DNA from: Stappia stellulata DSM 5886
Lineage (GTDB): Bacteria > Pseudomonadota > Alphaproteobacteria > Rhizobiales > Stappiaceae
Reading direction: 5' to 3'
Length of the DNA: 64,000 nt
Assembly: GCF_000423705.1 (NCBI RefSeq)
Contig: NZ_AUIM01000012.1
Span: forward strand, 62,001 to 126,000
Position 1 is the first letter of the stretch. Each line of letters opens with the position of its first letter. The notes under the pieces are model-generated. The model made no database searches, had not been told where the DNA came from, and saw only the letters and a program-made list of their open reading frames with translations. Below, in pieces: positions 24,102 to 50,618 of this stretch. The position numbers and the translations under genes were made by a program.

Positions 24102-25748
24102 TCAGGTTGAACCTCGACAGCGCGGGACAGGCAGGCACCGGTAGCTCAGCTGGATAGAGCACCAGACTACGAATCTGGGGGTCGGGAGTTCGAATCTTCC
24201 CCGGTGCGCCATCTCTTTTTCGATACATGAAATCCCTGCTAAAGCCTTGAAAGGCATAGCTATTTTCGGGGTTCGAACACCTTCGTTTCTGCTATAGGAA
24301 ATAGGCTCTACAAAGGCCAGTCGAAGCACGGTTTTCTTCCATGCGAGATCGCTGTTTTTCCAAATTTTCCAGGGGCTTGATAGGAATTTGAAGGCGAGTT
24401 CGAACAACTCCTCCTGGGTGTGTCGCGGCTTGCCCGCATTATCAATGTGTTCCTGGGTCAGGAGTTTTTCCTGCTCAAGCTTTGAGATCCGCTTTTCATA
24501 GGCAGAAATCACAGAAGCATTGCTTGCCTCAACGATGCGGTCGAGAAGCTGTTCGATCTGTTTGTCGATCTTCTGAACGTTCGTTTTAAGCGACTTCGCT
24601 ATTTCATCCGCCTGTGCGAGGCGCATGTTCCAAAGATCGATGAACATCGCCTTCGCCAGCTCGAACAGCTTCGCTTTCGGCTGAAGGGTCTGAAGGAGCT
24701 CTTCGAATTCGCCCTCCAGCACATCACGTCGTATGGATTTGCGATAACTCTCGCACCCCTTTTTCTTGCACATGTAGTAGGGGTGCTTTGCTCCGGTTTT
24801 CGATTTTGCCCAGCAAGCCGTCATAGGCGTTCCGCAATCATCGCAGTGCACGAAGCCACGAAGCGGGAAGTCAGCGCTTATGTCTTTGCGAGCGGGCGCC
24901 TTTGCCGTGCCGTTCAAGCGCTCTTGGATTCGTTGGAAGGTCTCGAAGCTGATAAGGCCCTCATGTTGGCCTTTGCGAAGCGAGATGCCCCAATTTGGAG
25001 CTTCTATGTACCCGGCATAAAGCGGCTGCGTCAGAAGGTCGTGAATGCGTTGGTTTCTGATCGTGCCGTCCGGTAGATCCTTGGGATAGGTGGGTTGCCC
25101 TTCTAAAAAACGCTTCACTTCGACCTGTGTCTGAAACCTTCCGCACGCATAGCCTTCAAACGCTTCCTGCAAGATTGACGCTATGGGTTCGTCTCGGACG
25201 AGGAGTTTTCGATGACCGGGGGTTTGTTCATAGCGAAACCCTCTGGGAGGACGCGCAAGCACGCAATACCCATTCATCACTCGGGCACGCATCCGGTTCT
25301 TGGTTTGCTCCGCATTCTTCTGGCGTTGATGCTGCGAAACAGAAGCCAGCATGTTTTCCACGAGGATGGAGTCTGAATCTTCACCGAACTCAATGGAGGG
25401 GCTTTGCAACACGCCACCAGCATCGGAAATAGCCGCCCGAAGGGCTAGGTGAGCATCCAGGCCGCGTGCGAGGCGGGATACATCATCGATGATAACGATA
25501 TGAGGATCGTTCTTGCGTTTGCGGATGTAACGCAGCATCGCTTGGATACCGGGTCGATCAATCAGCCCACCGGATGCGTCATCTTGAAAAATGTCGACGA
25601 CATCCAATCCCTTATAGCGAGCGAACTCTCGGCATCGGGATTCCTGCGAGCCCAGTCCGTCGCCGACCTTTTTTTGTTTGGAACTGGAAACACGGCAATA
25701 AATAATCGCCTTGGTTCCAGTTTCAGAAAATGGGTTTGCCGATCTCAT
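24102..25748 (-). CDS. Large serine recombinase (element integrase)
   Basis: The 548-residue protein has an N-terminal resolvase domain (IIYCRVSSSKQ, nucleophile Ser21), a central recombinase domain (about 160-280), a zinc ribbon with CDDCG and YYMCKKKGC, and a C-terminal coiled coil (about 390-450). It should cut and join the attachment sites to integrate or excise the element. The ATG at 25748 follows AAGGTGAGTAGC. The frame does not stop inside the element: from residue 513 it reads the antisense strand of the tRNA-Arg gene and stops at 24102, so the last 36 residues are encoded by the target site. In a circular form the tail would differ (see findings). Confidence 0.93.
   Translation of the reverse strand: MRSANPFSETGTKAIIYCRVSSSKQKKVGDGLGSQESRCREFARYKGLDVVDIFQDDASGGLIDRPGIQAMLRYIRKRKNDPHIVIIDDVSRLARGLDAHLALRAAISDAGGVLQSPSIEFGEDSDSILVENMLASVSQHQRQKNAEQTKNRMRARVMNGYCVLARPPRGFRYEQTPGHRKLLVRDEPIASILQEAFEGYACGRFQTQVEVKRFLEGQPTYPKDLPDGTIRNQRIHDLLTQPLYAGYIEAPNWGISLRKGQHEGLISFETFQRIQERLNGTAKAPARKDISADFPLRGFVHCDDCGTPMTACWAKSKTGAKHPYYMCKKKGCESYRKSIRRDVLEGEFEELLQTLQPKAKLFELAKAMFIDLWNMRLAQADEIAKSLKTNVQKIDKQIEQLLDRIVEASNASVISAYEKRISKLEQEKLLTQEHIDNAGKPRHTQEELFELAFKFLSSPWKIWKNSDLAWKKTVLRLAFVEPISYSRNEGVRTPKIAMPFKALAGISCIEKEMAHRGRFELPTPRFVVWCSIQLSYRCLPVPRCRGST
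24135..24211 (+). tRNA. tRNA-Arg (anticodon ACG)
   Basis: A complete 77-base cloverleaf is present. The acceptor stem GCACCGG pairs with CCGGTGC, the D arm reads GCTCAGCTGGATAGAGC, the anticodon stem CCAGA pairs with TCTGG around loop CTACGAA (anticodon ACG), the T arm contains GTTCGAAT, and CCA is encoded at 24209-24211. The 3' end is the insertion site of the mobile element to its right. Confidence 0.97.
24203..24212. other. Putative left attachment core (attL) at the tRNA-Arg 3' end
   Basis: GGTGCGCCAT, the last bases of the tRNA acceptor stem with CCA and one more base, is repeated exactly at 50609-50618; 14 of 15 bases match if the next five are included. DNA to the left is high-GC chromosome, and to the right is the lower-GC element starting with the recombinase gene. 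Confidence 0.75.
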
Positions 25749-25753
25749 GCTAC

Positions 25754-26122
25754 TCACCTTTCTGCAGATTGGCCGTCCGGGCCATCCGCCATCTTCTCAA
25801 ATTCCTTCTGAAAACCTTTATCTGTATCGGTTTTATTATCGTGGATGCTTGCTCTAACTTCAATATTATTCGAACCATATTCCTCAATAACCTGTTGAAT
25901 CGGGTGAATCCCAAAGCCGAGATCGACAAATTGTAGTAATATCGACCATATTGTCTCAAGAAATTCTTGTTTATGCGCTTCACTCAGCGCGGGATCGTCG
26001 AGGAAGTGCATATATTTATCGAAATCGACTTGAAGAACGTTACACGGTGTATCGTTTGCATCACGGGCCTTTTCGAAGGGCTCGCGGACGGAGTGTTTAC
26101 CGTTGTTGGTTTTATCCTTCAT
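25754..26122 (-). CDS. Small hypothetical protein upstream of the recombinase
   Basis: The 122-residue acidic product (starts MKDKTNNGKHSVREPF) has no recognised domain and no membrane segment. Its stop lies five bases before the recombinase ATG, so the two are translationally linked. The position next to an integrase would suit a directionality or accessory factor, but there is no sequence evidence for that. The start is followed from an AT-rich promoter-like region on its upstream side. Confidence 0.65.
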   Translation of the reverse strand: MKDKTNNGKHSVREPFEKARDANDTPCNVLQVDFDKYMHFLDDPALSEAHKQEFLETIWSILLQFVDLGFGIHPIQQVIEEYGSNNIEVRASIHDNKTDTDKGFQKEFEKMADGPDGQSAER

Positions 26123-26375: not shown

Positions 26376-28307
26376 TTATTTCTTCCAGATCACGAATGGG
26401 CATTCCCCGACAGAACGCTGCTCCACGGGCTGCGTTATCAGGGGGAGGCCTGCATAGCGGCACCAACTTCCTGAGCCTGTGCGATGAGTGAGCACGTAGG
26501 GCCAGCCGAACATCTGCACGATGACGATCAAAGCGATGAATAAGACCGCCCGACCGCTCGGCTTGAAGTGAGATGCAGCCGCGAAAAACGGAACCAGAAG
26601 CGGGCGCTTGGGGCGTTTGATCATCCTCCGTCCCGCCCGCGTCGCTTTCATACGACCGGACCTGATGCGCATCTTGACTTGTCCCAAGAACGGCTCGCCG
26701 CCATAGAGCGGGGTAGGCCGAACCTGGCTACGCCATGGATCAACTTCTTGATAGCCAGCTTTGAGTGCGCGGATCGGCGGCAGATTCTGCGCGAAAATGA
26801 TTTGCTCATCTTCGGGGAGTTCGCGAAGCTGAGTGGGGGAAAGTAAAGGCTTGTTGCGTGGCGCTAGGCTAAGATTTAGGTCCGAGAAGATTTCTTGGCC
26901 TACACCAAAACTCTCGCCCATGAATTCATATTCACCGAGCAGGCGACTGACGAGCTGAGCGGTCTTATGCGAAGCGAAACCATAGAACAGCTTCACGTCT
27001 GTCTGGCTCAAGATCGTGGCAAGGGCTTCTGCCCCATAGACCCGCGTGATTTCCTGTAGCTCTTGCACCACTATCCAGCAGCGAATGCCATAGCCGCCAA
27101 GGGCCGTGAGCGCGTTGGGTAGACCGGCAAGGCGGTAGTTCGTGAACTCATCCAAAATGAAGTGGACAGGGATGTCGTTGTCCTCGCGCACCAACTCTTT
27201 GAGCGCAGCCCAGATCAGAAGACCAAGCCAGGGTGCAAACACATCCATGCGCGAATAGTCGCAAACCAGAAACAGAGTGATTTTGCGCTCTTTCAGATCG
27301 CGGAAACGAAAGCCGCAGTTTTCCATCGAGGGGGCGAGGCGTCCGCTTGGGCCGAACGGCACGAGACCTTGCACAGCACCTTCGCGGAAGGATTCAAAGT
27401 GCTTGTCGTTTGTGTCCCAGTTTGCGCTGATGTTCGCGGCTAAGGCTGCGAGTTCGCCACCGAGGACATCGCTTCCCAGAGCTTGGATAAGCAGGGTTTG
27501 GATAAGATCGTTGTCGCAAAGCACCTCATAGGCGCGTGGCAGATGGGCTTCAGCTTCTCCACGCAGCGTGGAGAGGGCAACGATCACAAAGACGAAGAGC
27601 TTGCGTGTGCCATTCGGCCAGTAGGGATCACGCTCGCCGCCGGGAGCCTTAGGGTACAGCTGAAGTGCCATCGACCAGGCGTCGGCTATGACATCCTCCG
27701 GCGCGTTTTCCAGATCATCCAGAATGACAATCAGCGGATTATACGGGATGCTTCCGAGCGCGAACTTATGGGCAGGGTTGAGAGCGATGACCTCATGCCC
27801 ATGTTGATCCCGGATCAAATCAGCCGTCTGATAGAGAAGTTCCCCTTTCATGTCGGCCACAATCCGGCTTGCACCGATGTCATGACATAGCTGCGGCATG
27901 ACGAACGACGTGCTTTTGCCTTTGCGTGCCGGAGCGCAAATCAGGCCATGTACGGCATTAAAGATCGATAGCGGACGGCCTTCCAAAAGGCCGAGGAAAA
28001 TCCCCGTATCCTCTGTAAGGCCAGCTCTTCTAGCCTCTCGAACCGTCAGCCATGAGGACGAAGACGCCGACAATTTTGGACGCAATGCCCGGAACTTGCG
28101 GGCTGCTTTAGATGAAACGGATACCGCGTCGCGCGCCGCTTCATAGGCGCCAGTGACGGCGAGCAGTGCGCCGAAACCCCAAATCGCTTGTGCCCATTCA
28201 GCATCCTGCTGAGAAGGCTGAACGAAGCGCCATGTGTGATAGAGCACAGCGGCGAGCGCAGATGTGGCCAGGAGCTTCGCAATCGGGTCGTGCTGCTGAT
28301 TGCTCAT
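26376..28307 (-). CDS. VirD4/TraG-type coupling protein (type IV secretion ATPase)
   Basis: The 643-residue protein couples relaxase-bound DNA to a type IV secretion channel. It has N-terminal membrane spans (about 10-28 and 42-58), a Walker A variant APARKGKST at 125-133, a Walker B HFILDEF, and the downstream WIVVQELQEI motif of VirD4 ATPases. Unusually it has a C-terminal extension after about residue 565 with another hydrophobic segment (AVLFIALIVIVQMFGWPYVL) and two Cys. Its ATG overlaps the stop of the preceding gene (ATGA). No VirB-like genes accompany it. Confidence 0.92.
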   Translation of the reverse strand: MSNQQHDPIAKLLATSALAAVLYHTWRFVQPSQQDAEWAQAIWGFGALLAVTGAYEAARDAVSVSSKAARKFRALRPKLSASSSSWLTVREARRAGLTEDTGIFLGLLEGRPLSIFNAVHGLICAPARKGKSTSFVMPQLCHDIGASRIVADMKGELLYQTADLIRDQHGHEVIALNPAHKFALGSIPYNPLIVILDDLENAPEDVIADAWSMALQLYPKAPGGERDPYWPNGTRKLFVFVIVALSTLRGEAEAHLPRAYEVLCDNDLIQTLLIQALGSDVLGGELAALAANISANWDTNDKHFESFREGAVQGLVPFGPSGRLAPSMENCGFRFRDLKERKITLFLVCDYSRMDVFAPWLGLLIWAALKELVREDNDIPVHFILDEFTNYRLAGLPNALTALGGYGIRCWIVVQELQEITRVYGAEALATILSQTDVKLFYGFASHKTAQLVSRLLGEYEFMGESFGVGQEIFSDLNLSLAPRNKPLLSPTQLRELPEDEQIIFAQNLPPIRALKAGYQEVDPWRSQVRPTPLYGGEPFLGQVKMRIRSGRMKATRAGRRMIKRPKRPLLVPFFAAASHFKPSGRAVLFIALIVIVQMFGWPYVLTHRTGSGSWCRYAGLPLITQPVEQRSVGECPFVIWKK

Positions 28308-32527: not shown

Positions 32528-34093
32528 TTATCCCTTACGTCCTCGGATATAGTCGTAATCTGGCACTTCAGAGGACAATACCAGCTTGCCTTCATCACGC
32601 TCTTTGCGGTGCTCCGCGAAAACGATGAAATCGACAAAGTAAAACAGTGCGGCCCTCGCCAGTCTCAGGGAGGCCAGCGTCAGTTGTTCAAATTCCAGTA
32701 GGCTCTTGTGCTCTACCGCCAATGAATCCGATAGGTGATTGTGACCCATATCATGAAGAACAGTGAATCTATGGGTGGACGAATTTCTGAATTGCCGCTG
32801 AGCATCGAGGAACCCACCACCAAGGCTTTCGTGTGTTGAAACGTCCTGAAATATATCGAAAAGAGCCATCAAAGGTTGGTTGCCCCCGATCAGCTCAGTT
32901 TCAATTTTCTTGGAAAAGACGAACCCCTTTTCCTTTTCGTTGTTTCCCCAAATGCCGGTGAAAGATGCCCTGTGCGCTCCGGGAAGCTTTAAATAGCAGG
33001 CTATGGCAACAGATATTTTGTCGAGGATATCGAACGCAATACGCTGCGCGGTGGTCAGTGCGGAATATCTAACGCCATAGACCGCATAGTCCAATGTGTC
33101 CGCATGGGAGGTTGTTTCGAAATACGGCGTCTCCGCATCGTATTCGCGGACGTCGAAGAAGACTTGTCTGGCAAAGGCGAAGTCCGCCTTCATCACGTTC
33201 ATCATCGCAAATATCTCTGGGACATCCGGTCCATCTTCCAGCGTTGTTTGAAGATGGGGAATCGTCAAAAGGTCAAAACGTCCAGAGGAAAATTCCTGCG
33301 TGCTGCAATGCAAGGACAGGGCAAGACTGTTCCGTCGAATGTCCGAAAAATAGGCGTTATCCAGTCGCTCGACCTGAGGTTCACCAAACTTTAGCCCATG
33401 ATCAACGGCCTGCTTGGCTATAGGGATAGCGGCCGCCCCAGCAAACTCCTCCAACACATCATAATTCTCGGAAACAACCGTTGCCAGTTGCCGGACGCGC
33501 TGACACAGCGCATCGACATGGCAATACGATTGATAGGTTTCTTCTCTCTGCGTGAAAAGGTTTGCCAGCGCCATCAGGCGCCGCATTTCCTGAAACGCCG
33601 CGACCGCATTTTTGGGTAAGATGTGCTGTGCATGTTGAAAGCAATCCAAGGCTTCAACCCACCGATGCGTTTCCAGAAACAAAATTCCGATATTTGTCAG
33701 CATCTGAGATCGGGTTGAAATCGATGCTGAAGAGTCATTCATGACTCGACCGAAAAGGATGCGGGCCCGCAAACGGTCATCGGCGACTTGTCCCCGAAGG
33801 GGCCTTTCCGCTGCCGCGAGCAGTCTCGCGCGGAGCTGCAACCCGTTGGCTAAATTGTACGCTATATCGGGACTGAAAGAGATTTCGGCCGAAAGAGTTT
33901 CAAGGATATCCACTCCGCGGCTGATCGATGAGAGATCGCCAAGCGCATCGCCGCAATCTATCAAGATAATCGCGGCAGTAGCCCTTCCGTTGGGCGTCTT
34001 GTCCAACTCGTTTACTCGGCGAAGCGCTTCGGCAGGGTCCTTATCCCGCAATTCCTGAAGCTCTTTTCCAACACTATCGCGGGGCTCACTCAT
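32528..34093 (-). CDS. TPR-like protein with LA2681-type HEPN domain
   Basis: The 521-residue product has a helical N-terminal half (about 10-230) with TPR-like repeats (for example SQMLTNIGILFLETHRWVEA and ALDCFQHAQHILPKN). The C-terminal half matches the LA2681-like HEPN layout, with the RX4H motif RNSSTH at Arg436-His441 inside AQRQFRNSSTHRF. HEPN proteins with an intact RX4H are usually metal-independent RNases in immunity or toxin systems. Its ATG overlaps the stop of the upstream gene, so it is the last gene of a three-gene set. It could be the RNase effector, with the repeats as sensor. Confidence 0.8.
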   Translation of the reverse strand: MSEPRDSVGKELQELRDKDPAEALRRVNELDKTPNGRATAAIILIDCGDALGDLSSISRGVDILETLSAEISFSPDIAYNLANGLQLRARLLAAAERPLRGQVADDRLRARILFGRVMNDSSASISTRSQMLTNIGILFLETHRWVEALDCFQHAQHILPKNAVAAFQEMRRLMALANLFTQREETYQSYCHVDALCQRVRQLATVVSENYDVLEEFAGAAAIPIAKQAVDHGLKFGEPQVERLDNAYFSDIRRNSLALSLHCSTQEFSSGRFDLLTIPHLQTTLEDGPDVPEIFAMMNVMKADFAFARQVFFDVREYDAETPYFETTSHADTLDYAVYGVRYSALTTAQRIAFDILDKISVAIACYLKLPGAHRASFTGIWGNNEKEKGFVFSKKIETELIGGNQPLMALFDIFQDVSTHESLGGGFLDAQRQFRNSSTHRFTVLHDMGHNHLSDSLAVEHKSLLEFEQLTLASLRLARAALFYFVDFIVFAEHRKERDEGKLVLSSEVPDYDYIRGRKG

Positions 34094-34713
34094 GAGCAGA
34101 TATGATCCATCTTTTGCTTAAACTTCTCGCGCATATCGGTATTTGCAGGGTCTTTCAGCGCCGCGATATAAACGTCAAACGCCGTGACCAATTGCTTATG
34201 CAATAGCGTGCGATTGATCACGATCCGCCCGTCATTGTGAAAGACGAACATCTTGCCGCTCTTGCGAACGATAACACGGTCGGTTGAACCGGTATGATGA
34301 AGCGCGCAGCGACCCTGCTCATAAACGCTAACCGCCAAATCATCAGCGTTCGCGCCTTGCGGTACGCAGTCTTTGAATACCTGCCAGTTGGTCCAGAACG
34401 CCTTGAAAAGTGCTTTGCTCTTTCGGTTGTGGTTGGTCAGGCCTTCCCGAAAGCCCTGAATGGTTTCGATAAGGAGAAAGTCGATAGCCAGCACGGCAAA
34501 GCCGTTTATCCCGCGACCCTTGCCGTTCTCTGCATCGATCAAGAGCTGTGCTGGTTCGATAAAGCGGCGCCGGATGCGTGTATCGAGGATAGCGATTGCC
34601 TTGGTCCAGTCTGATGACGTGGAGTTCTTCTGGTTTAGGGTGAGGCTCTTCCAGCCTTTCACCCGGTGGCCAGGCGCAATCTCAAAATTGTCCGGTAGCG
34701 TAGACGATCCCAT
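34090..34713 (-). CDS. HEPN-like protein with RX4H motif
   Basis: The 207-residue helical product has YEQGRCALHHTG at residues 131-142, giving Arg135-x4-His140, the spacing of HEPN RNases. The preceding helices (AVLAIDFLLIETIQGFREG) fit the four-helix fold. The start at 34713 follows AGGATAGT and lies directly after the stop of the Mrr-like gene; an ATG at 34734 would overlap it. Its stop overlaps the next ATG by four bases. A second HEPN-type protein beside the 521-residue one suggests a paired system. Family identity is inferred from motif only. Confidence 0.65.
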   Translation of the reverse strand: MGSSTLPDNFEIAPGHRVKGWKSLTLNQKNSTSSDWTKAIAILDTRIRRRFIEPAQLLIDAENGKGRGINGFAVLAIDFLLIETIQGFREGLTNHNRKSKALFKAFWTNWQVFKDCVPQGANADDLAVSVYEQGRCALHHTGSTDRVIVRKSGKMFVFHNDGRIVINRTLLHKQLVTAFDVYIAALKDPANTDMREKFKQKMDHICS

Positions 34714-34714
34714 A

Positions 34715-36010
34715 CTATCCTGCCTTCGCCGCACGTTTAGCCGCGTCGGCGTCTCTTTTTTCCGCCGCCTGCGCTTTGCGATATGTCGCTACGCGCTTGA
34801 TGATGGAGAGCAACTCAGCAAAATTCTGCACACTCGGTTCAATGCCGAACAGTGGGCAGTCGTGCTCCTTATCGACAGGGAAACCTACTTGACACGGTTC
34901 ATTGTAAGATTCGATACGGAAATGTTTTTCGGGTTCTTCGGGCTCTTCAATGCCACTCGGTTCGAGGCGGAGCCAGTATTCCTCTATCTCATCCTTATCC
35001 TCTGTGAGCGCCTGACGGTTGAATGCGAGGATGCGTCTGCAATCCGCGCTGCAGATATCCTGAATTTCGGAGAGAAGTTGATCGGCGATCGGCATCAATA
35101 GATATGACTGGACATCTTCCGGGAATTTGTCCGGTTCACCGCGCGTGATCGAATTGACGACGAGCTCCGCGACGCTTTCCGGCGGAAGCTGATCGATCGC
35201 AGATAAGATCAAATAGGCGAAAGCGCGAATAAGCGGCGTTTGCTCAACACCTGCCTTTGATGCCCGCATCATCAGATACGGAGCGTTCACCAGCCCGAGG
35301 TGCAACACCTCGACGAGCGAAGCCGTGCTGAGCACCGCGCCCCAGGGCCGGTGCGTGATGCTGCCATTGGCGAATTCGTTCGCGATGAGCGCAAATACGC
35401 CTAGCGATGTAAATTCAGCTTCGACGCGCGCATTCCAAAGTTTTTTCAGTGTGGGGGAGGAGACGAATTCGAGCTTATTCCAGAAACGCGACTCCAGCGC
35501 CTGGAACTGACCATCAAGGCTGAGCGCCTCGGAAAACAACCGCAGAACCACATCGGGATGACGCGACAAAAGCCGCTCCAGATGAGCGCTATCCCAAAGC
35601 TTGACCTTGGGCCGCGGATTGTTCTTCTGCCACTCCTTGACCCAGTCGCGCGTCGGGTTGGAAAATTGGGTATTGGTGGCAATGACGACATAGTCGAGGC
35701 CGCCTTTGGCCTGAGCGTTGATAACAGCGCTCTTTACCTCGTCAGATTCTACCGTGCCGCTTCGTCCCTTGCATTCGACCCACCAGACCTGCGGTTCCAT
35801 TTCCTGGTCAGCAGTCGGCGTGTAGAAATGCGCCTCAAGATCGCGGCCACCGTCCGAAGCACCGCCGCCGCTGCCTCCCGTGCGCCATTCAAGGTCTTTG
35901 GCGCCCATGGCGTCGAAGAGCCAGTAAAGGCACTCTTCCAAGTCTTTGCCCTTCAATTCCGCGAAGGGAATTGACGCCGGCAGAATCCATTCTTTTTCTT
36001 CTTCACTCAT
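34715..36010 (-). CDS. Mrr-like restriction endonuclease
   Basis: The 431-residue product has an N-terminal PD-(D/E)xK nuclease domain: LEECLYWLF near 25-32, GGRDLEAHF with Asp57, WWVECKGRSG with Glu79-Cys-Lys81, and a following DYVVIATNT strand. This matches Mrr-type endonucleases that cut modified or foreign DNA. Residues from about 160 to 431 form a helical domain of unknown type, with a Lys/Ala-rich C-terminus. It has its own AT-rich 69-bp upstream gap after the ABC ATPase gene, so it probably starts a separate transcript with the two HEPN-motif genes. Confidence 0.82.
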   Translation of the reverse strand: MSEEEKEWILPASIPFAELKGKDLEECLYWLFDAMGAKDLEWRTGGSGGGASDGGRDLEAHFYTPTADQEMEPQVWWVECKGRSGTVESDEVKSAVINAQAKGGLDYVVIATNTQFSNPTRDWVKEWQKNNPRPKVKLWDSAHLERLLSRHPDVVLRLFSEALSLDGQFQALESRFWNKLEFVSSPTLKKLWNARVEAEFTSLGVFALIANEFANGSITHRPWGAVLSTASLVEVLHLGLVNAPYLMMRASKAGVEQTPLIRAFAYLILSAIDQLPPESVAELVVNSITRGEPDKFPEDVQSYLLMPIADQLLSEIQDICSADCRRILAFNRQALTEDKDEIEEYWLRLEPSGIEEPEEPEKHFRIESYNEPCQVGFPVDKEHDCPLFGIEPSVQNFAELLSIIKRVATYRKAQAAEKRDADAAKRAAKAG

Positions 36011-36079
36011 AGTGTGTTAAACTAATATCTTTACAACCAATTTTCCACACGAATATTTAATACTCAGGAATTCAGCTTT

Positions 36080-37918
36080 TTATAGCAGCCCTTGGCGTCC
36101 CTCGTCAGGGTCATTAGTGAAAGCTTCCACCTTGCAATAGTCCTCGATGTCTTCGGGTGGATCGACGTTCTCGAAGACCATGATTTGCGCCTTCTCGCCA
36201 AGGTGGCCAAGATGTTCAAAGAAGCGCTGTTTGAGGTCCGTGTTGCGCATTTCCTGTTCGTCCAGCGTCAGACGATCACCGGGTTTCTTCATCGGGTCGC
36301 GGTAAGTGAGCAGCGGCGTGTCGAGCACGAGGAAACCCGGATGCGGTAACCCGCGCTCGCGACAAAAGAGCATCAGCGCAACTTTGAAGGCTGCGTGCGT
36401 GATCGCGCGAACGCCCTTGCCGTTGTTCCGGCGTTCCTTGCCATCAATGATGAGATCATACGTCGATAAGTCAAAAACGACCTGCTTCTGACCGGGGAAG
36501 CCCCAGGCTAGCAGGACCTCCGAGACCACATCCGCAAATTCTTTTGCGGTTTCGGTCGAAAGGCCACGCTGGACCGTGCCGTCAACCTTGGGCGGCTTCG
36601 ATGCCTCGATCTCTTCTTTCTGTTTGATGAGCCGATCGCGTTGCGCCAGCAGGTCGAGACCGCGACGCACATGATCGCGCACGGACACGACCTCACTCAA
36701 TTGACGCTGCTGCTCGCTTTCGCTGGGCGTCGCCTCTTCAAGCTTAAGTTCCACATCGCGTAAAGACTGCCGCAGCCTGGCCACCTCGGCGATGAGTTTT
36801 GCGCCTTCAGTCTTTGTGTCCTCGACTGTTCTAATGAGTTCGCTACGTTGCTGCTTGATCTTTTGGACTTCGGTTTCGGCGGCCACGCGCACGTCCTCGA
36901 TTTCAGCGAGGCCGTGCGAATGCACCTGCGCATCGGGCGGCGCGCCGCAAACGGGGCAATCGCTCCTGCCGTCGAGACTGAGCAGGAAGCCGGCTTCTTC
37001 GAGCGACTCGAGGCGCGAGATGTCGCTTGCATAGACTTCTTCCAGCTTCTCGAAGCTGTCGAGGCTCAAGGCGATTTCTGTGCTCCGGCGTTCGGCGGCG
37101 GAGATTTCGACCGACAGGGTACGCTTTTGGTCCAGCAGAGTTCGGATGGAAGAGCGTGCGGCGCTGACCTCGTTCTCGATCCGGCGCAGAGTATCATTGA
37201 TCCTGTCGTTCTGATCAGCCAGACCATCCGTGTCGGGATAGTCCGCCGATAGATCGGCGTTGATCTGGTCAATCATATCTTGGATGAAAGAGGCTTTGGC
37301 GACACGGCCAGTACGGAAGTCCTTAGGTTTCACGACCGGTACGATTGCAGAGTCGTCTTCGCCTGTAAGAATAAATTTGAGGACGCTGCGCTCGCGCGTC
37401 TTGACGTTCGTATCGCCTGACTCGATGGGCGAGTCCTCCGACTGAATTGCGATTTCGTCGGTAAGTACGACGCTCGCGATGTCACGGAACGATAGGTTGC
37501 TATGAGTCCCTGAGGCGTCTACCGACACCTTGCGACCGGCGGCCTCCATCTGCGTAAGCAGGAATGTAGAAATATTATTGGGCGTATTTGCGTTGTGCTT
37601 GGGGGCGAGCGTGCGGGCGGCGTCCTCGCCTTCATGGAGCCTGAACGGTCCGCCAACAATAGCGCGTTCCAGCCGGACTTTGTGGTCGGGCGAAAACGCT
37701 ATATCGAGCCACAGCTTGTCATAGGGCTCCCGCTCCTTGATGTTCGGCAGTTCACGTTGGCCACCCAGCATGAAGTCCAGCGCCTTCAGCGCAAACGATT
37801 TTCCGGTATTGGATGCACCATAGACAAGTGACAGGCCGGCAGCGAAGTCGAGAACAGCTTCCTCGTCGCCCTTGCCCGTGAGTTTCAGTTGCTCGATGTG
37901 CCAGCCCGCGTAGGTCAT
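36080..37918 (-). CDS. SMC/Rad50-like ATPase of an ABC-three-component system
   Basis: The 612-residue protein has Walker A GASNTGKS at 34-41, a long coiled coil (about 235-440) broken by a zinc-hook-like CPVCG at 321-325, and a C-terminal Walker B FLVLDTP at 529-535. This is the Rad50/SMC layout: ATPase halves joined by a coiled coil. It is the last of three overlapping genes and its ATG shares bases with the stop of the middle component (ATGA). In ABC-three-component systems this ATPase is thought to sense invading DNA and license the effector. Confidence 0.88.
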   Translation of the reverse strand: MTYAGWHIEQLKLTGKGDEEAVLDFAAGLSLVYGASNTGKSFALKALDFMLGGQRELPNIKEREPYDKLWLDIAFSPDHKVRLERAIVGGPFRLHEGEDAARTLAPKHNANTPNNISTFLLTQMEAAGRKVSVDASGTHSNLSFRDIASVVLTDEIAIQSEDSPIESGDTNVKTRERSVLKFILTGEDDSAIVPVVKPKDFRTGRVAKASFIQDMIDQINADLSADYPDTDGLADQNDRINDTLRRIENEVSAARSSIRTLLDQKRTLSVEISAAERRSTEIALSLDSFEKLEEVYASDISRLESLEEAGFLLSLDGRSDCPVCGAPPDAQVHSHGLAEIEDVRVAAETEVQKIKQQRSELIRTVEDTKTEGAKLIAEVARLRQSLRDVELKLEEATPSESEQQRQLSEVVSVRDHVRRGLDLLAQRDRLIKQKEEIEASKPPKVDGTVQRGLSTETAKEFADVVSEVLLAWGFPGQKQVVFDLSTYDLIIDGKERRNNGKGVRAITHAAFKVALMLFCRERGLPHPGFLVLDTPLLTYRDPMKKPGDRLTLDEQEMRNTDLKQRFFEHLGHLGEKAQIMVFENVDPPEDIEDYCKVEAFTNDPDEGRQGLL

Positions 37919-38406: not shown

Positions 38407-39413
38407 GGCTTATTCTTCCAAGACAGTTCCCCGTCATTGACGAAGTGATGGCAGATTCCCTGTTTGACAGGAACGTGCGCGTATTTGGCAAGCGGGCCAG
38501 CGCACGTCACCGTAGCCGCGTGGTTCATAACTGCCTCGACACGAGCAAGCGTGTCATCGGCGGAGACTTTCCAACGCTCGATCACGCCAAACTTTACGTC
38601 CTTGCGGAAACCAGAAATAATGCTCGCCGACGTGTTGTCCCGATAAAATTTCTGAAAGGCGTCCGCCTCAAAAAAGCGCTCACGCTGCCTTCGTAAATCC
38701 GGCCCGTGCTCTACGTTCGCTAGGACGGCGGCGTGATTGGCGAATGGCTCCTTGGCGCGCTCACCATACGCTTCGACGAGTTCGTCGATATAGCGCATCT
38801 CTATGTCCTGAACGTCCATTGGAACCGCGGCGGTGGGATATTTGCCGGGATCAGCGCCGAACTTTTCGATCAGCAGAGGCTTCACCGCCGGATCGTCCAT
38901 CATGTCATCAATGGTGACGATGCGTACATTGCTGAAATCGTAGGAGTTGATGACTCCCATCACCTTGGCATCGAGCGGCACAGCAACTTTTCTGGTGATC
39001 GAGTTGGCGCAAACGGTGGCCCATCCGTCGATCAGCGCCTTCTTCAACTCGCTTGGCTTGTCAATGAGCAGTTCAAGTTTGCGCGCCAATCCCTTCGGGG
39101 CTACGAAATAAAAATTCGTCGGTGGGCTAAAATGGCCTTGAGATGCCCAGTAAAGAACCTTGCCGATTGCCAGAAGTCCCTGCGAGCGGCTCACACTCTT
39201 CCGGTATTGTTTGCATTGGTAGTTGTCCCACGGGCCGTCGTGGCGCGCATCGGTGAGAAAACCAACGACATCGCGGCCCATATCGCCTGTGCCCGCGATT
39301 CGCTTTACTTCGACGTAGCCGGACTTCTTCTCAGTCCATGCGCGACAGAACATCTCAAGTTCTTCGTCGTCCATCAAAAGAATTAGTCGATCGTATCGAA
39401 TGTCTCCGGGCAT
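38403..39413 (-). CDS. ABC-three-component effector with Mrr-like nuclease domain
   Basis: The 336-residue product has an N-terminal PD-(D/E)xK domain: ELEMFCRAW near residue 19, GDMGRDVVGF with Asp48, and YQCKQYRKS with Gln66 and Lys68 (the QxK form used by Mrr-type nucleases). The remainder (about 150-336) fits the C-terminal domain of ABC-three-component effectors. It is the first gene of the three-gene operon, with a 123-bp AT-rich promoter region upstream. It should be the DNA-cutting arm, activated through the middle component. Confidence 0.82.
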   Translation of the reverse strand: MPGDIRYDRLILLMDDEELEMFCRAWTEKKSGYVEVKRIAGTGDMGRDVVGFLTDARHDGPWDNYQCKQYRKSVSRSQGLLAIGKVLYWASQGHFSPPTNFYFVAPKGLARKLELLIDKPSELKKALIDGWATVCANSITRKVAVPLDAKVMGVINSYDFSNVRIVTIDDMMDDPAVKPLLIEKFGADPGKYPTAAVPMDVQDIEMRYIDELVEAYGERAKEPFANHAAVLANVEHGPDLRRQRERFFEADAFQKFYRDNTSASIISGFRKDVKFGVIERWKVSADDTLARVEAVMNHAATVTCAGPLAKYAHVPVKQGICHHFVNDGELSWKNKP

Positions 39414-39536
39414 AGAGTTTCTTGTTCCCCCAAGCTAACTTAGCAATTCTCCCAACCTTCTGAAATTATACTATTCGCACCCATCTGGATAGTTTTCCAC
39501 AATCATTATTCCCGTCTGAGTGGTCAATTAAGCCGC

Positions 39537-41081
39537 CTAAAGCGATGAGAAGGTATCGACATAGATCGCTTCGACCCGTTCCACTTCTTCTTCTGTAAGT
39601 GCCTCAAATTCCTTCTCTTTGGCGCGGTTTGACAGCTTGCCGTCATTCTGACCGAGAAACCGAAATAGCAGGTCGACGGTGCGCTCAGGCATGTCGATCA
39701 TGCCTTCGATGCGGCGGCGGAATTCATCGTAGCGGCGCAGGAAGTCTGTCTCGTACGGCAGGTCGTGCTCGATGGTTCGTTTGACACATTCGTAGAGAAA
39801 TTCGGCGTGCGGGGTGGCATCGAAAAAGCGGTAGAAATCGCCGGTTTCGTTCAGGGCGCGGACATTGAATTTCTCGGTTGGCTCCCAGCGGATATGGGGC
39901 AGCAGGCGCTGCGAATAGGATTCGAGCGTGGTGCGGTACTGATCGATCTGGTCGAGAATCGCTGCCGAGACCGGGAAGACAACGCCGGGCGGATTGTAGC
40001 CGCGATCAGCCAGGACATGATGAATGAGATAGCGGTGCAGACGGCCGTTGCCGTCCTCAAACGGGTGGATATAGACAAAGCCGAAAGCGAGGATCGCGGC
40101 GGCGATGACGGCGTCCATGTGCTGCGCGGGACCACGGTCGAAGGCGATCATGCCCGTCAGAAGCGACGGCAGGTCTTCGTGGCGTGCACTGATATGGTCC
40201 GGCAGCGGCAGGCGGGTATCGCGGTCATGGTCGCCGACAAATCCGCCTTCGTCGCGAAAGCCCAGCTTGATGAAGCGGGCGTCGCCAATGACGATGCGTT
40301 GCAGGCGCAGCAGCTCGTCCTCATCAAGCGGCTGTTTGCCTGCTTCGCCGATGGCGCGGCCCCAGCGCTGGATGCGGTCCTGCGGCGGGCTTTCGCCTTC
40401 AATCGCATAGCTGGATTTGGAATCCTTGAGCAGCAGGAAGGCGGCGGTACGAGCGAGCACATCGCGCGGGACATCGGCCACGATGTCTCTGGCGCGTTGC
40501 GCCAGGCCCTCGGCGATGTAGTCTTCCAGCCGCTTTGTGCGAAAGACCAGCGGACAAAACGCCGGAGTGCCGGGCAGATTATTGCGTAGCCGATAGCGTG
40601 GAACGGTTTCCCCTTCGATGCCCCATTGCAGATCGGGATCGAGCACGGGGGCATATTTTCCGGTCCGGGCATCGGGCAGGTCCAGCGCTTCCCCTGTGAG
40701 CCATTCATAGAGGAACCAGACGCGCCTTGCGTAAGTGCCGGTCGGTTTGTCGCGCACAATAGCTGTGATCGGGTCAGGGCCAACCTTGAGGAACAGGCAC
40801 TTGAGAACGGCAAGGTCGAGCCCTTCATACTTGAGGGCGAAGGTCAGGTGGCCTTCGAGGCTGGCCGCTGGCGCATGGCGCGGTGTCATCATCCGCCAGC
40901 CATCACGCTCCAGCATGCGGTGATGAGCGCCGATGGCGCAGAGCGTGCGTGGCAGGGGGACTTCGAGCCTATAGGCATCGATCAGCGCGCTGTAGCCGGC
41001 AGGCGTCGCGGTTTCAGGAAGGCGTCTTTCCTGAAAAACGGATACTGGGCCTGAAAACTGGTGCTGTGCGGCCGAAGCCAT
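39537..41081 (-). CDS. Fic-family AMP transferase with inhibitory helix
   Basis: The 514-residue protein has the Fic motif HPFEDGNGR at 339-347 and, upstream, the auto-inhibitory motif SYAIEG, whose Glu228 would block ATP binding (class II Fic: inhibitory helix N-terminal to the Fic core in the same chain). The N-terminal 200 residues form a Fic-N-like region. Such proteins transfer AMP to target hydroxyls and may act as regulated toxins. The start at 41081 follows AAGGCACGG; open frame upstream has no support. It stands alone between the ABC-three-component operon and divergent ardA. Confidence 0.92.
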   Translation of the reverse strand: MASAAQHQFSGPVSVFQERRLPETATPAGYSALIDAYRLEVPLPRTLCAIGAHHRMLERDGWRMMTPRHAPAASLEGHLTFALKYEGLDLAVLKCLFLKVGPDPITAIVRDKPTGTYARRVWFLYEWLTGEALDLPDARTGKYAPVLDPDLQWGIEGETVPRYRLRNNLPGTPAFCPLVFRTKRLEDYIAEGLAQRARDIVADVPRDVLARTAAFLLLKDSKSSYAIEGESPPQDRIQRWGRAIGEAGKQPLDEDELLRLQRIVIGDARFIKLGFRDEGGFVGDHDRDTRLPLPDHISARHEDLPSLLTGMIAFDRGPAQHMDAVIAAAILAFGFVYIHPFEDGNGRLHRYLIHHVLADRGYNPPGVVFPVSAAILDQIDQYRTTLESYSQRLLPHIRWEPTEKFNVRALNETGDFYRFFDATPHAEFLYECVKRTIEHDLPYETDFLRRYDEFRRRIEGMIDMPERTVDLLFRFLGQNDGKLSNRAKEKEFEALTEEEVERVEAIYVDTFSSL

Positions 41082-41488
41082 GAAATCCGTGCCTTGCTCG
41101 GGGTTGCGTGGTTCCAGGAAGTACGTTTCCTGAATTTTGATTCTATCACATGAAAAATGGTTCTCATAGAAAAATATCGTGAAAAGCGATATTCGTGCTG
41201 TTTGGCCGTCCGGGCGGGCTGTCGTGAACCGAGCCTGATGTCTCGGCCATTTGGCTTCCATCCCTGACGCAATGAGTATTGGGCTGCTTTGCAGCGCTTT
41301 CCCGTTTGTCGGGGAAGCCAAGAGGCTTTGCCTCTTTCTCCCCGCAAGGAAAATAGACGCCGGCCGTGGCTCGGCTTTGCCTGCGCCCGCACCACCCGGC
41401 ATCGATTTTCCTTAGCCCCTCCCATCTCCATCCTCAGCCGGAAGCAGGGTTGCATGAACAACCCACTTTCTATTTGGAGGATTTATCA
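41082..41488. promoter_or_regulatory. Palindrome-rich region upstream of ardA
   Basis: The 407-bp gap between divergent fic and ardA has a run of hairpins: GCTGC-TTT-GCAGC at 41283-41295, AAGAGGC-TTT-GCCTCTT at 41320-41336, and an outer repeat of GGAAAAT...CCGG (41348-41363) against CCGG...ATTTTCC (41396-41411). The ardA ribosome site TTGGAGG is at 41474-41480. It may hold an ordinary promoter, or one formed in single-stranded DNA. Confidence 0.55.
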
Positions 41489-41995
41489 ATGACTTATCTC
41501 TTTGCTCAGCCCTATGACATTTCAGCAAGCGGCTTTTATTTCGAGAATTTTGAAGACTATCAGGCCAAGGCGGCGAAGGCCGTGAACCACTACGGTGAGC
41601 GTGTCGAAGAATTCGAGATCCAGTTTATCGATGGAGAAGACATCGATTGCGAACTCGCAAAAGCCTACGGGATCAATCAGGCCAATCTGAAAAGCTATTT
41701 CAGCGCTGTAGACGAACTGGACGAGGACGAAAAGAAAACGGTGATTTTAGCGGTTGGTGAATGCGGCTACGACATCGAACGTGTACTTGGCCATATCAGC
41801 GGCGTGGATCTGGACATCTACTATGTGTCCAGCATGCGCGAATTGGCCGAGCAGTTTGTCGAAGAAGGCCTGTTCGGGGAGATCCCCGAACGCCTGCAAT
41901 ACTATCTCGATTATGATGCCATCGCCCGTGACCTGTCGGTGGATTACACCGAGACGGTGATTGCCGGTGAAACCCTCATCTATCGCTGCGCATAA
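41489..41995 (+). CDS. ardA: Anti-restriction protein ArdA
   Basis: The 168-residue, strongly acidic protein is a DNA mimic that blocks type I restriction enzymes when DNA enters a new host. ArdA features are present: SGFYFENFEDYQAKAAKA near the N-terminus, VEEFEIQFIDGEDI, LEDIYYVSSM-like patterning in DLDIYYVSSMRELAEQFVEEGLFG, and LQYYLDYDAIARDL. The ATG at 41489 has a very good ribosome site (TTGGAGGATTTATCA). It is co-directional with a 143-residue gene 12 bp downstream. Confidence 0.95.
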   Translation: MTYLFAQPYDISASGFYFENFEDYQAKAAKAVNHYGERVEEFEIQFIDGEDIDCELAKAYGINQANLKSYFSAVDELDEDEKKTVILAVGECGYDIERVLGHISGVDLDIYYVSSMRELAEQFVEEGLFGEIPERLQYYLDYDAIARDLSVDYTETVIAGETLIYRCA

Positions 41996-45588: not shown

Positions 45589-46185
45589 TTATGCCGCATG
45601 ATCCAACCCCATTCGCCGAATAGCCCGGTCCAACGTTATACGAGAAACGCCGAGCATGTCGGCGATATCGTTGCGGCGTTCTCCGGCTGCGATCAGGCGA
45701 TGCGCCTCGACAACGGCTTGGGGTGATAGGATCGGTCGGCGGCCTAAGCGGGTGCCGCGTTTCTTCGCCGCTTCGAGCCCGCAAAGCGTGTTCTCCAGGA
45801 TGATATCGCGCTGGAATTCGGCAAAGGCACTGAAGAGGTGAAAAACCAGCTTGCCGCCGGGGGTGGCGGTGTTGATGCCCTCGGACAGCGACATGAAATG
45901 AATGCCGTCCTCCTGAAAGCGCACCAGCAAATCGGAAAGATGCAGGACGGAGCGGCCCAGCCGGTCGAGCTTATAGACCACGACCATATCGCCAGCCTTA
46001 ACATCGTCCAGCATGGCGTCAAGGCCGGGGCGGCTACCCTTTGCGCCCGACACGCCATGATCCTCGAAAATCGGTGTGCATCCGGCCTGGTTCAGCGCAT
46101 CGAGCTGCAGAGAAAGCCGCTGGTCCTTGGTGCTGACGCGGGCATAGCCAACCCGGCGGCCAGAGCCGTTTTCACCCGCATTCAT
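45589..46185 (-). CDS. Small serine resolvase/invertase
   Basis: The 198-residue protein is a TnpR/Hin-type serine recombinase: VGYARVSTKDQRLSLQ has the nucleophile Ser, VVYKLDRLGRS and FAEFQRDIILENT are the other active-site blocks, and the C-terminal LIAAGERRNDIADMLGVSRITLDRAIRR is a helix-turn-helix. It may resolve multimers or act with a lost transposon. No transposase is nearby, and I do not recognise a res site. It is separate from the large recombinase that moves the element. Confidence 0.93.
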   Translation of the reverse strand: MNAGENGSGRRVGYARVSTKDQRLSLQLDALNQAGCTPIFEDHGVSGAKGSRPGLDAMLDDVKAGDMVVVYKLDRLGRSVLHLSDLLVRFQEDGIHFMSLSEGINTATPGGKLVFHLFSAFAEFQRDIILENTLCGLEAAKKRGTRLGRRPILSPQAVVEAHRLIAAGERRNDIADMLGVSRITLDRAIRRMGLDHAA

Positions 46186-46687: not shown

Positions 46688-46689
46688 TT

Positions 46690-48760: not shown

Positions 48761-48776
48761 CTTACCGGTATGCCGA

Positions 48777-50099
48777 TCACAGCTCGGGCTCAGGCCCGGA
48801 ATTTGTTCGACCGGGCCCATGCATTCGATCAGCGCGTCTAGGCAACTCACTATTCCGACGCTCATTGGTACGTGGTTGCAGAATTTCCCGCCGCTTGAGC
48901 AGATAGCTCGCGATATCATGTTGCAGTTCGGAAATCTCCTTGCTGCGCTGCTGGCGTAGCGTATTGATTTTTTGCTGGAGCCGCTGACGTTCTTCGAGGT
49001 GCTGAACGATCAGCTTTTCCTTCTCCGCAGAATCGCGCCGGTAAGCCTGCCAGGCTTCATATTCGTTCTGTTGCTTAATTCGGCGTGTCTTGCCTGTTAC
49101 ACGACTCCATAACCCTCCAAGACCCCTAGGAAGCCTTGCTGCGCGTTGCTGAGCTTCCTGAAGCTGGCGCTTGCCCAGTTTCTCCGAGAGGAGGATGCGC
49201 TCTTTTTTCTGGCGCTCGACCATTTGCGTTCGCTGATATTCGATAGCGGGGCGCAAGCGGCGGTAGTACATATCGACATCACGGATGAAGCTCTTAAGCC
49301 TTTCATCCATGCGTTCGGACACCATCGCTTTTACCTCCTCAATGGAAGGAAGCTGCGTGTCCTGGCCAAAGCGATCCCTGATATCTTTAGTCTTCACGCC
49401 CGACCAACGTGCCAGTGAATAGACTTCTCCGCGCATGTCCACCGCGACCACGGCACGTCGGTCGCCTTTGGCAATGAAATAGCCTTTTTCCTCTAGAGCC
49501 TCTTTGAGAGCTTTGGCAGTGTCGGATCTTTGCCAGCTCTCCTGAAACATCGCTTTGATCATGCGCGGGTCTTGCTGGATACGTTTGGCCTGTTGCCATT
49601 CCTTTAGGCTGAAATTGAGTGGATTGCGCAGTTCGCGGTCGATGAATCCCTTTGGTAACTTCCTGCCATGTTCGAGATAGAGTTCCTTAGAAACCTCCAT
49701 AAGGCGGTTTTTAAAAAAGGGGAGCTGCTTGGCCGTCATCGTCTGCGCATCGATACGCGACCAAACCACATGCGCATGCCGTCTGCCTTCTTTCTCATGG
49801 AAGACAATCGCGCGTGGATGATCATCCAGGCTGAGCTTTTGCTCGATCATTTCAATCGCGGTTTCGAAGGTCTCAACAGGCACGTTTTCCGTTTCGGGAG
49901 GGCTAAGGCTGAGCGAGAACAGAAACTGTTTGCAACGGCTGCCCTTGGCGATGGCTTCCGCCTCATACAACGCCCCGTGCAAATTCTCGCTCAGGAAGCC
50001 GCGCAGCTCATGCAGCTCCACATGCTCATTGTCCTGCGTATTCAGCAGGTGGCTGGCGAGCTGGGTGGCGTTTGCGCGTTGAGAGGCCTTCAGGATCAT
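48777..50099 (-). CDS. Relaxase / mobilization nuclease
   Basis: The 440-residue protein should nick one strand at oriT and pilot it to a recipient. The metal-binding motif is HEKEGRRHAH, with His101, His108 and His110, within AIVFHEKEGRRHAHVVWSRID. The C-terminal half is a long coiled coil rich in Arg and Gln. The N-terminal motif, where most relaxases have the nucleophile Tyr, here reads NATQLASHLLN and EHVELHELRGF with no Tyr before residue 45. The ATG overlaps the mobC stop by four bases. No helper mating system is encoded. Confidence 0.9.
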   Translation of the reverse strand: MILKASQRANATQLASHLLNTQDNEHVELHELRGFLSENLHGALYEAEAIAKGSRCKQFLFSLSLSPPETENVPVETFETAIEMIEQKLSLDDHPRAIVFHEKEGRRHAHVVWSRIDAQTMTAKQLPFFKNRLMEVSKELYLEHGRKLPKGFIDRELRNPLNFSLKEWQQAKRIQQDPRMIKAMFQESWQRSDTAKALKEALEEKGYFIAKGDRRAVVAVDMRGEVYSLARWSGVKTKDIRDRFGQDTQLPSIEEVKAMVSERMDERLKSFIRDVDMYYRRLRPAIEYQRTQMVERQKKERILLSEKLGKRQLQEAQQRAARLPRGLGGLWSRVTGKTRRIKQQNEYEAWQAYRRDSAEKEKLIVQHLEERQRLQQKINTLRQQRSKEISELQHDIASYLLKRREILQPRTNERRNSELPRRADRMHGPGRTNSGPEPEL

Positions 50100-50515
50100 G
50101 GGCCACTCCCCGGACCCTTGCCGAGAGCTTCCATAAGAGCGCAGCGCATATCTTCGATGGCTGCACAAGCTTCCTTCAAGGATTCGTCGGTTTCCGGTGT
50201 AACAGGTAAAATGCCAGTGTTTACGGCGCGGGCGAGTTGGTTGAGGTTTGCCGATAGGCGGGACGCGCCGAGTTGGCCTAGAACGCGCCCAAGAGCTTCG
50301 TGATCTTTGACGGGGAAATTGCCGCGCGTGCGGCGTTTTTCGACATGTTCGCCAAGCAAGCGCTCACGAATAAAGGCTCCGAGCGGCATCCCACCTGCAA
50401 GCTCTTCAAGCTTGGCGCGTTCCGCAAAAGTCAGGCGCAGCGAAAAGGGCGGGGGATATTTCGGCTCTTTCTCGGAAGCCGCTAACCTATTGAAATTACG
50501 GTCCAGAGGGTTCAT
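50096..50515 (-). CDS. MobC-like mobilization accessory protein
   Basis: The 139-residue product has a ribbon-helix-helix-like block FSLRLTFAERAKLEELA followed by LGAFIRERLL, then a helical C-terminal half with LGRVLGQLGASRLSANLNQLARAVNTG, the MobC pattern. It probably binds near oriT and helps the relaxase open the DNA. It overlaps the relaxase gene by four bases. A ribosome site GAGGTG lies before its ATG. Confidence 0.85.
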   Translation of the reverse strand: MNPLDRNFNRLAASEKEPKYPPPFSLRLTFAERAKLEELAGGMPLGAFIRERLLGEHVEKRRTRGNFPVKDHEALGRVLGQLGASRLSANLNQLARAVNTGILPVTPETDESLKEACAAIEDMRCALMEALGKGPGSGP

Positions 50516-50618
50516 CGTCGCACCTCAGACCATTAGTGTCTAAATGTCTGAGATGGCGTTCCCACTCCTCAAGCGCTTCAAAGAGAGAGTTTAAACTTTC
50601 TCCCTGTGGGTGCGCCAT
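50496..50618 (-). CDS. 40-codon frame overlapping mobC; predicted recombinase tail in the circular form
   Basis: The frame starts at the ATG inside the right-hand GGTGCGCCAT repeat (MAHPQGESLNSLFEAL) and stops at 50496, 20 bases inside mobC. In the integrated state it has an apparent ribosome site AGAGGGGAAGAA, which lies outside the element in chromosomal DNA. If the element circularises at the 10-bp repeat, the serine recombinase frame (ending CIEKE-MAH) enters this frame exactly in phase. It may therefore be the normal end of the recombinase rather than a separate gene. Confidence 0.55.
   Translation of the reverse strand: MAHPQGESLNSLFEALEEWERHLRHLDTNGLRCDDEPSGP
50516..50618. other. Candidate oriT with inverted repeats
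   Basis: Upstream of mobC are two palindromes. CTCAGAC and GTCTGAG (50524-50552) enclose an inner TTAG-TGT-CTAA. GAGAGAGTTT and AAACTTTCTC (50583-50602) match 9 of 10 as an inverted repeat and are followed six bases later by GGTGCGCC, similar to the nick region of MobQ-type origins (GTGCGCCC-like). A position next to mobC-relaxase fits oriT. No nick site can be proven from sequence. Confidence 0.45.
50609..50618. other. Putative right attachment core (attR)
   Basis: This GGTGCGCCAT is an exact copy of the tRNA-Arg 3' end at 24203-24212. It lies between mob genes and high-GC chromosomal DNA, where the distal end of the element is expected. The chance of a 10-base match in the roughly 300-bp boundary interval is small. 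Confidence 0.75.

Follow-up and report, generated by a model that had tools for sequence, protein, structure and literature searches.

What becomes of a site-specific recombinase when the site at which it recombines lies inside its own reading frame? This question is raised by a genetic element in Stappia stellulata DSM 5886, in a stretch of 64,000 nucleotides (contig NZ_AUIM01000012.1, positions 62,001 to 126,000) that is referred to here as the window and to which all coordinates refer. The element spans approximately 26.4 kb, from the tRNA-Arg(ACG) gene at 24135-24211 to position 50618. A gene for a large serine recombinase (LSR) runs across one of its ends, and a mobC-like gene and a relaxase gene lie at the other. 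Our analysis indicates that integration and excision very probably swap the C-terminal tail of the LSR and, at the same junction, detach and attach the mobC-relaxase genes, so that the element would be an integrative mobilizable element (IME) with its attachment site attP in frame in a recombinase-mobC-relaxase string. The class is assigned provisionally from gene content. The element carries its own integrase and relaxase, is flanked by attachment sites and sits at a defined target, as is expected of an IME. Among the 18 distinct element open reading frames (ORFs) scanned with Pfam, a subset of the total, a coupling protein but no VirB-type protein was found.

The LSR gene and its two ends

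The features that make up the two junctions are as follows.

24102-24212, minus strand: LSR tail in the integrated state, antisense of tRNA-Arg plus flank (ORF and tRNA calls)
24135-24211, plus strand: tRNA-Arg(ACG), the integration target, intact at this end (ARAGORN, Rfam)
24203-24212, no strand assigned: core repeat at the recombinase-side junction (repeat search)
24213-25757, minus strand: LSR body, with an ATG at 25748 and an alternative GTG at 25757 (Pfam Resolvase, Recombinase, Zn_ribbon_recom)
48777-50168, minus strand: MobA/VirD2-type relaxase (Pfam Relaxase)
50096-50515, minus strand: mobC-like relaxosome accessory protein (Pfam NikA-like, E = 2.6e-5, 24.7 bits, under the 27-bit cut-off)
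50496-50618, minus strand: predicted LSR tail in the circular state, 40 codons and a stop, with a 20-bp overlap with the mobC start (frame joining, family comparison)
50609-50618, no strand assigned: core repeat at the mobC-side junction (repeat search)

By its domains (PF00239, PF07508 and PF13408, each above its Pfam cut-off), the window protein is a large serine recombinase, and it is predicted to recombine both attP with attB and attL with attR. A preliminary description of this DNA had placed a 10-bp repeat at 24203-24212 and 50609-50618; these coordinates are exact, and the sequence, GGTGCGCCAT, has no other copy in the window. On the minus strand the left copy contains an ATG that is codon 516, in phase 0, of the GTG-started ORF 25757-24102, or residue 513 when counted from the ATG at 25748. 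Residues 513-548 of the integrated form are read from the antisense of tRNA-Arg(ACG) and its flank, as had been proposed and as the ORF and tRNA coordinates agree. Joined at the repeat, the frame instead reads MAHPQGESLNSLFEALEEWERHLRHLDTNGLRCDDEPSGP followed by a stop (50618-50496), which falls 20 bases inside mobC (start at 50515). Both the in-frame ATG at each copy and the 40-codon tail ending inside mobC were therefore reproduced as first described. The LSR body, with 512 residues before the site, is whole in both states, with no split into N- and C-terminal fragments. Since attP lies in the reading frame, integration would alter only the C-terminus of the LSR.

The open frame is shared by related recombinases

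Related recombinase loci were collected by a genome-contig scan, which gave 44 loci, and by a family search, which gave matches in 19 of 87 genomes; after same-locus copies were removed, 63 LSR loci were read. A stop codon ahead of the site would speak against a tail exchange, and none was present in 61 of the 63 loci, in which the frame is open across the attachment site (62 in a mechanical recount to the expected codon). The exceptions are L043, in which the frame is broken, and L065, which has a stop 9 nt before its tRNA. In a held-out set described below, 25 of 26 recombinase loci cross the site (one of the 26, L205, is apparently a copy of L031).

In 53 of the 63 loci the site directly adjoins a tRNA gene that lies on the opposite strand. 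The targets include tRNAs for Arg (five anticodons), Ser, Leu, Phe, Glu, Thr, Ala and Met, to which the held-out set adds Val and Tyr. In these relatives the tRNA and flank determine the integrated tail, whose length and sequence differ from element to element. On the LSR strand the shared core holds TGG, the antisense of the CCA end of the tRNA; its presence in the cores is by construction, since the core search required it. The TGG in the core (e.g. 24203-24212 in the window) may explain how tRNA genes of at least 10 amino acids are used by related LSRs.

The LSR family was found in records titled Alpha- and Gammaproteobacteria, Nitrosospira, Nitrospira, Nitrospirales, Nitrospinia, Cerasicoccus and Polarisedimenticolaceae, many of them metagenome-assembled genomes. 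No relative was found in the viral contigs searched, and the plasmids searched gave distant relatives only (72 records, all below 60% identity, nine of them covering 80% of the query).

A conserved tail lies at the mobC-side end

Relaxase matches were found in 51 of 61 genomes with these recombinases, 79 matches in all. After 16 of these were left out (a duplicate genome, fragments and low scorers), the mobC-side ends examined numbered 63: the window, L014, 60 that were fetched, and L164. G056 and G087 are the same genome and were counted once, G265 appears to be the same as G115, and eleven further loci (L165-L175) were fetched and left out of the counts. The first tails were found by eye and by pattern searches that required W or H; 47 of them were used to seed a profile. 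This profile matches 54 of the 63 ends, 52 of them at E<1e-5, and the tail motif can be written S-N-x-L-F-E-x-L-x-[DE]-W-[EN]-x-x-L-K. The W is present in 52 of 52 first-set tails, which is partly by construction, and in 14 of 16 held-out tails (L235 and L236 are without it). For five tails (L139, L146, L147, L150 and L151) the contig contains no paired recombinase. When the profile was run against all six frames of the window and loci (845 kb), eight hits were obtained at E<1e-3, all on the recombinase strand: four were seed-set tails, one (L023) was a junction, and the others were in L015, L017 and L018.

Four tailless relaxase-mobC units (L141, L143, L144 and L145, from G102 and G103) are closely similar to one another upstream of mobC and perhaps belong to another element family.

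The two ends join in frame

The frame of the tail was taken from the profile and that of the recombinase from its own alignment. Because the two frames are set separately, their agreement is a test, with a chance expectation of one in three. Of 47 pairs of ends, 41 were retained. The others were G108d, with no tail by profile; G121a and G072, with no TGG core; and G120, G105 and G112a, with a core shorter than 6 bp (G105 being out of frame). Among pairs with a TGG core of at least 6 bp, 40 of 41 join in frame, as do 24 of 24 with a core of at least 9 bp, counts that are not phylogenetically independent. The lone out-of-frame pair, G097, lacks the site, with both ends cut by the contig. In seven of the 41 pairs the two ends come from separate contigs (G056, G089, G091, G098, G122, G041 and G070), and two that were kept (G108c and G121b) have a mobC-side end to which a further recombinase fragment is fused. 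The LSRs of the tRNA-Thr elements G113 and G033 are in a different codon phase at the site, a difference for which a shifted tail end compensates.

A core search by longest common match, without the TGG requirement, gave 35 of 48 pairs in frame and was abandoned. The mismatched pairs mostly share 6-8 bp by chance, and such matches outcompete short true cores, a problem that the TGG requirement removed.

With the profile frozen, a held-out set was then assembled, in which recombinase matches were found in 21 of 385 class genomes (the source genome included), relaxases in 17 of 19 genomes searched, and 20 far ends were fetched. A tail is present in 16 of 18 pairs, and all 12 pairs with a core of at least 6 bp join in frame, five of them across different contigs; G508 was paired across the two ends of one contig. 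The pairs excluded were G137 and G210 (no tail), G233 (no TGG core), and G469, G131 and G455:C6, which have cores shorter than 6 bp and are out of frame, the recombinase match of G131 ending early. Two control far ends (L240 and L241) have no tail.

The tail evolves as protein

A comparison of 22 non-overlapping tail pairs gave 109 substitutions at codon position 1, 71 at position 2 and 187 at position 3. The pN/pS ratio in these pairs was 0.29 in the tail frame versus 0.95 and 1.54 in the shifted frames; motif-based tail finding biases this ratio downward somewhat, though few mobC-side ends are without a tail. The closest pairs, compared over 20 codons, differ by third-position changes only (two between the window and L096, three between L116 and L118). 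These patterns indicate that the tail evolves as protein. An alignment in which the short tails were left loose misplaced them (W371), and was dropped.

Natural fusions of the LSR and the tail were also found. In L014, from Cerasicoccus frondis, an uninterrupted LSR ORF ends in MARIDGNSSSELFNALADWEIQLKHLEEDI and is followed by a NikA/MobC-like gene and a relaxase; the locus has no tRNA, and the predicted circle order is kept within a 203-kb contig. Decayed LSR C-terminal fragments are fused in frame to tails in L163/L149 and L115, with stops further upstream in the L115 fragment, and in L023, which was recognised by eye. The fusions in L163, L115 and L023 are probably scars of decayed tandem elements.

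The preliminary description had made its case depend on conservation of the 40-codon frame. The frame is conserved as protein and joins to the LSR in both the first and the held-out pairs. Together with the open LSR frames, this supports the claim that excision would give the LSR another, element-encoded tail. Judged from these comparisons, the tail-swap architecture is a family trait, dozens of related elements in distant bacteria being built alike.

The element boundary fits unoccupied tRNA-Arg loci

The left flank and tRNA are present in 14 of 14 genomes of a genus sample (the source genome included), and tRNA-Arg(acg) is present in all 12 loci read from genus relatives. After GCGCCA these 12 loci continue with TTTC in eight (TTTCCCC in three) and with TATT, CTTC, TTCT and CTCT in one each. 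The window reads TTTCTTCCCC outside attR and TCTCTTTTT inside attL, and the TTTC of eight of the 12 relatives is as outside attR, not the TCTC inside attL. Because TTTC follows tRNA-Arg in the loci of relatives, the right-hand flank of the element fits chromosomal sequence. The right chromosomal flank gave weak or distant matches only in genus relatives, and the left flank with the tRNA was used instead. None of the 12 loci has the present recombinase family beside the tRNA; other elements there were not looked for. A junction lying elsewhere had been named as a possible objection, and the boundary as drawn fits these unoccupied loci.

Arrangement of the tail and mobC

Among 51 elements, 35 have a tail stop that overlaps a start codon in the mobC frame, 25 of them as ATGA; the mobC-frame start nearest to the tail stop was taken, which favours overlap. 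Such an overlap would be expected if mobC were translationally coupled to the LSR in the circle. The proposal that excision joins mobC-relaxase to the LSR operon is thus borne out in the arrangement of most elements, and less so in the 16 with a gap of more than 10 nt.

It had also been proposed that integrated mobC has only chromosomal DNA upstream. The flank is chromosomal, but a same-strand ORF (50941-52053) ends approximately 320 bp upstream of attR, so chromosomal read-through into integrated mobC may occur. One terminator-like site lies between this ORF and attR on the mobC strand (two were found on both strands of 50400-51000, with 0.7 expected), and no sigma-70-like promoter was found in 50400-51000.

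Structural predictions and upstream genes

An AlphaFold2 model was examined for the LSR of the relative L014, not for the window protein. The model is large-serine-recombinase-like (mean pLDDT 80.7), has long helices between residues 357 and 435, as in solved LSRs, and in Foldseek matched solved serine integrase complexes with E-values down to 6e-18, including Bxb1 and phiC31. The tail is modelled as a helix (516-537) after a flexible linker, both at low confidence.

Upstream of the LSR body lie two further genes:

25754-26122, minus strand: 122-residue small protein overlapping the LSR start (conserved neighbour, helical model)
26376-28307, minus strand: VirD4/TraG-type coupling protein (Pfam T4SS-DNA_transf)

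A 32-member profile matched a small protein overlapping or just before the LSR start in 52 of 63 loci, which include most of the profile's own members. That of the window has no Pfam or NCBIfam match, and the confident part of its model is helical. By position alone it is a candidate directionality factor or regulator. Profile comparison found it unrelated to the tail.

Proposed mechanism

In the mechanism that we propose, the 3' end of a tRNA gene would be the place where the LSR recombines, the antisense of CCA forming part of the core. Integration would cut the LSR gene approximately 36-40 codons from its end. The remainder would run on into the antisense tRNA and acquire an arbitrary tail in the chromosome, and the element's own tail would be stranded with mobC-relaxase at the other end, behind chromosomal DNA, where these genes would depend on whatever the flank supplies. 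Excision would restore an LSR-tail frame that ends on the mobC start codon; the circle would then make the tailed LSR, with translation of mobC and relaxase coupled as in overlapping genes. We infer from the DNA that the strain forms a circle at this site, and likewise the coupling and expression.

Of the two kinds of tail, the integrated ones are arbitrary and that of the circle is conserved, so it is in the circle that the conserved tail most likely acts. The useful recombination of a circle is that of attP with attB, in the donor or the recipient, so the role that most likely falls to the tail is to suit the LSR to integration, or to stabilise it in the circular state. PMC5737554 describes an engineered fusion of a recombination directionality factor (RDF) that shifts the direction of a serine integrase, which makes an effect of this kind physically plausible. 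A tail that signals the circular state and fits the LSR for integration, with the tRNA-tailed form available for excision, is a real possibility, if short of probable. The small upstream protein would perhaps be the directionality factor for excision by the tRNA-tailed LSR. More tentatively, because attP lies inside its reading frame, the LSR might sense its own DNA state: the tail would make the circular enzyme an integrase, the integrated enzyme would be excision-competent, and the same junction would turn on mobC and relaxase only after excision.

Several findings weigh against the exchange of tails and its proposed consequences. The circle, the transcript and the protein forms are here predicted from sequence. 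No tRNA was called at the site in 10 of the 63 LSR loci. Nine of the 63 first-set ends have no tail (L100, L108, L113, L128, L134, L141, L143, L144 and L145), as do two of the 18 held-out pairs (G137 and G210); for six of the nine no paired recombinase was seen on the contig (for L113 the nearest is approximately 100 kb off), and L128, L134 and L145 lie at contig starts or ends and are therefore not judgeable. The motif counts of the first set are not independent of the W/H patterns and the seeding, and relatedness inflates the raw counts. In 16 of 51 tails the stop precedes the nearest mobC-frame start by over 10 nt. The L014 model shows no confident docking of the tail, and no mechanism can be drawn from a structure in which the tail is of low confidence. 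In the window, the integrated-state tail ORF has its own ATG after the purine-rich GAGGGGA. Finally, four of 100 shuffled sequences contained at least two copies of the 10-bp repeat, so the repeat by itself is weak evidence; it is the comparison with relatives that raises the observation above chance.

This last point is all that favours a chance repeat with an accidentally open frame, a reading that is contradicted by the family-wide conservation and in-frame joining and has a negligible probability. The ATG in the window bears on another reading, in which the 40 codons encode a leader peptide or small protein in its own right, coupled to mobC when integrated, and the fusion in the circle is incidental. 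The site codon is ATG, GTG or TTG in 47 of 53 mobC-side ends, which would permit independent initiation. However, it is CTG in the other six, the sequence upstream of it is chromosomal, and a Shine-Dalgarno-like sequence precedes it in 9 of 53 ends versus a background of 10%; because of these figures, independent translation of the tail is not a family trait, though it may happen in the window. The stand-alone peptide would also leave unaccounted for an LSR without a stop before the site, the covarying phases at the two ends and the natural LSR-tail fusions, and we consider it very unlikely.

The open LSR frame could instead be a by-product of an attP placed at the end of the gene, the tail serving solely as a translational bridge to mobC with amino acids that are unimportant. 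The 35 stop-start overlaps and the predicted flexibility of the tail are consistent with such a bridge, but the pN/pS of 0.29 and the retention of the W (with the reservation made above for the first set) are not, nor is the keeping of the tail in the 16 elements whose stop is distant from mobC and in L014, where the mobC-like ORF starts approximately 260 nt later. A bridge alone is therefore unlikely. Coupling proteins export proteins by means of C-terminal signals. The tail might accordingly be imagined as a docking or export signal, by which the recombinase is recruited to the relaxosome or coupling protein, travels with the transferred strand and integrates at once in the recipient. The LSR includes the tail in the circle only and ends with it just before mobC and relaxase, and the element encodes its own coupling protein; this role is a serious alternative, if an unlikely one.

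Other genes of the element

A stretch of defence cargo occupies 32528-41995 of the window. It includes minus-strand matches to Lamassu LmuB, LmuC and LmuA (36080-37918, 37915-38406 and 38403-39413), beside which lies a Fic protein matching PADLOC PDC-S24 (39537-41402), together with an LA2681-like HEPN protein (32528-34093), an Mrr-type nuclease (34715-36010) and ArdA (41366-41995). A second, small serine recombinase of the resolvase type with a helix-turn-helix is encoded inside the element at 45589-46185. A TPP riboswitch (58410-58514) lies outside it.

Comparison with known systems

If the tail exchange is true, the choice to integrate or excise, to transfer or not, and the form of the enzyme would all be tied to one DNA junction without a regulator. 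On the more tentative reading given above, directionality would also be written into the LSR by the recombination event itself, where phage serine integrases take it from a separate factor. The natural pairs of isoforms would make the direction of serine integrases testable, and the family supplies LSRs located at tRNA 3' ends for at least 10 amino acids. In the open-access literature searched (subscription literature lay mostly outside the search), no recombinase was found that exchanges its own tail on integration, nor one with two full-length isoforms. The preliminary statement that no recombinase tail is known to change thus holds, within that search, for a full-length isoform pair, and is qualified by split integrases (PMC8371274) and by a phage repressor that loses its tail (PMC4557955). 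Of the systems compared here, these two come closest in concept.

IMEs with site-specific serine recombinases are described in passages of a review (PMC5704250) as disrupting dispensable genes. Those of the Tn4451 type resemble the present element as integrated elements with a single serine recombinase and very short direct repeats. The present family differs in lying at tRNA 3' ends, and the passages of the review mention no tail exchange. In the archaeal suicidal tyrosine integrases of the SSV/pT26-2 type, as outlined in passages of PMC8371274, the recombination target also lies within the recombinase's own gene, which integration interrupts, splitting it into inactive N- and C-terminal parts. 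Here the recombinase class differs, the LSR body is whole and the terminal stretch alone differs. The engineered fusions of a serine integrase with its RDF reported in PMC5737554 are alike in that an addition to the integrase changes the favoured reaction, the fused factor favouring attL x attR; they are laboratory constructs, whereas here a short natural predicted helix would be gained in the circle, where integration is useful. In mycobacteriophage BPs and its relatives, according to passages of PMC4557955, attP likewise lies inside a coding gene, and integration alters the C-terminus of a protein that then reports the DNA state, shortening the repressor and removing a degradation tag. In contrast to the BPs repressor, which loses its tag, the LSR described here would swap one tail for another, and mobC-relaxase would be moved by the same event.

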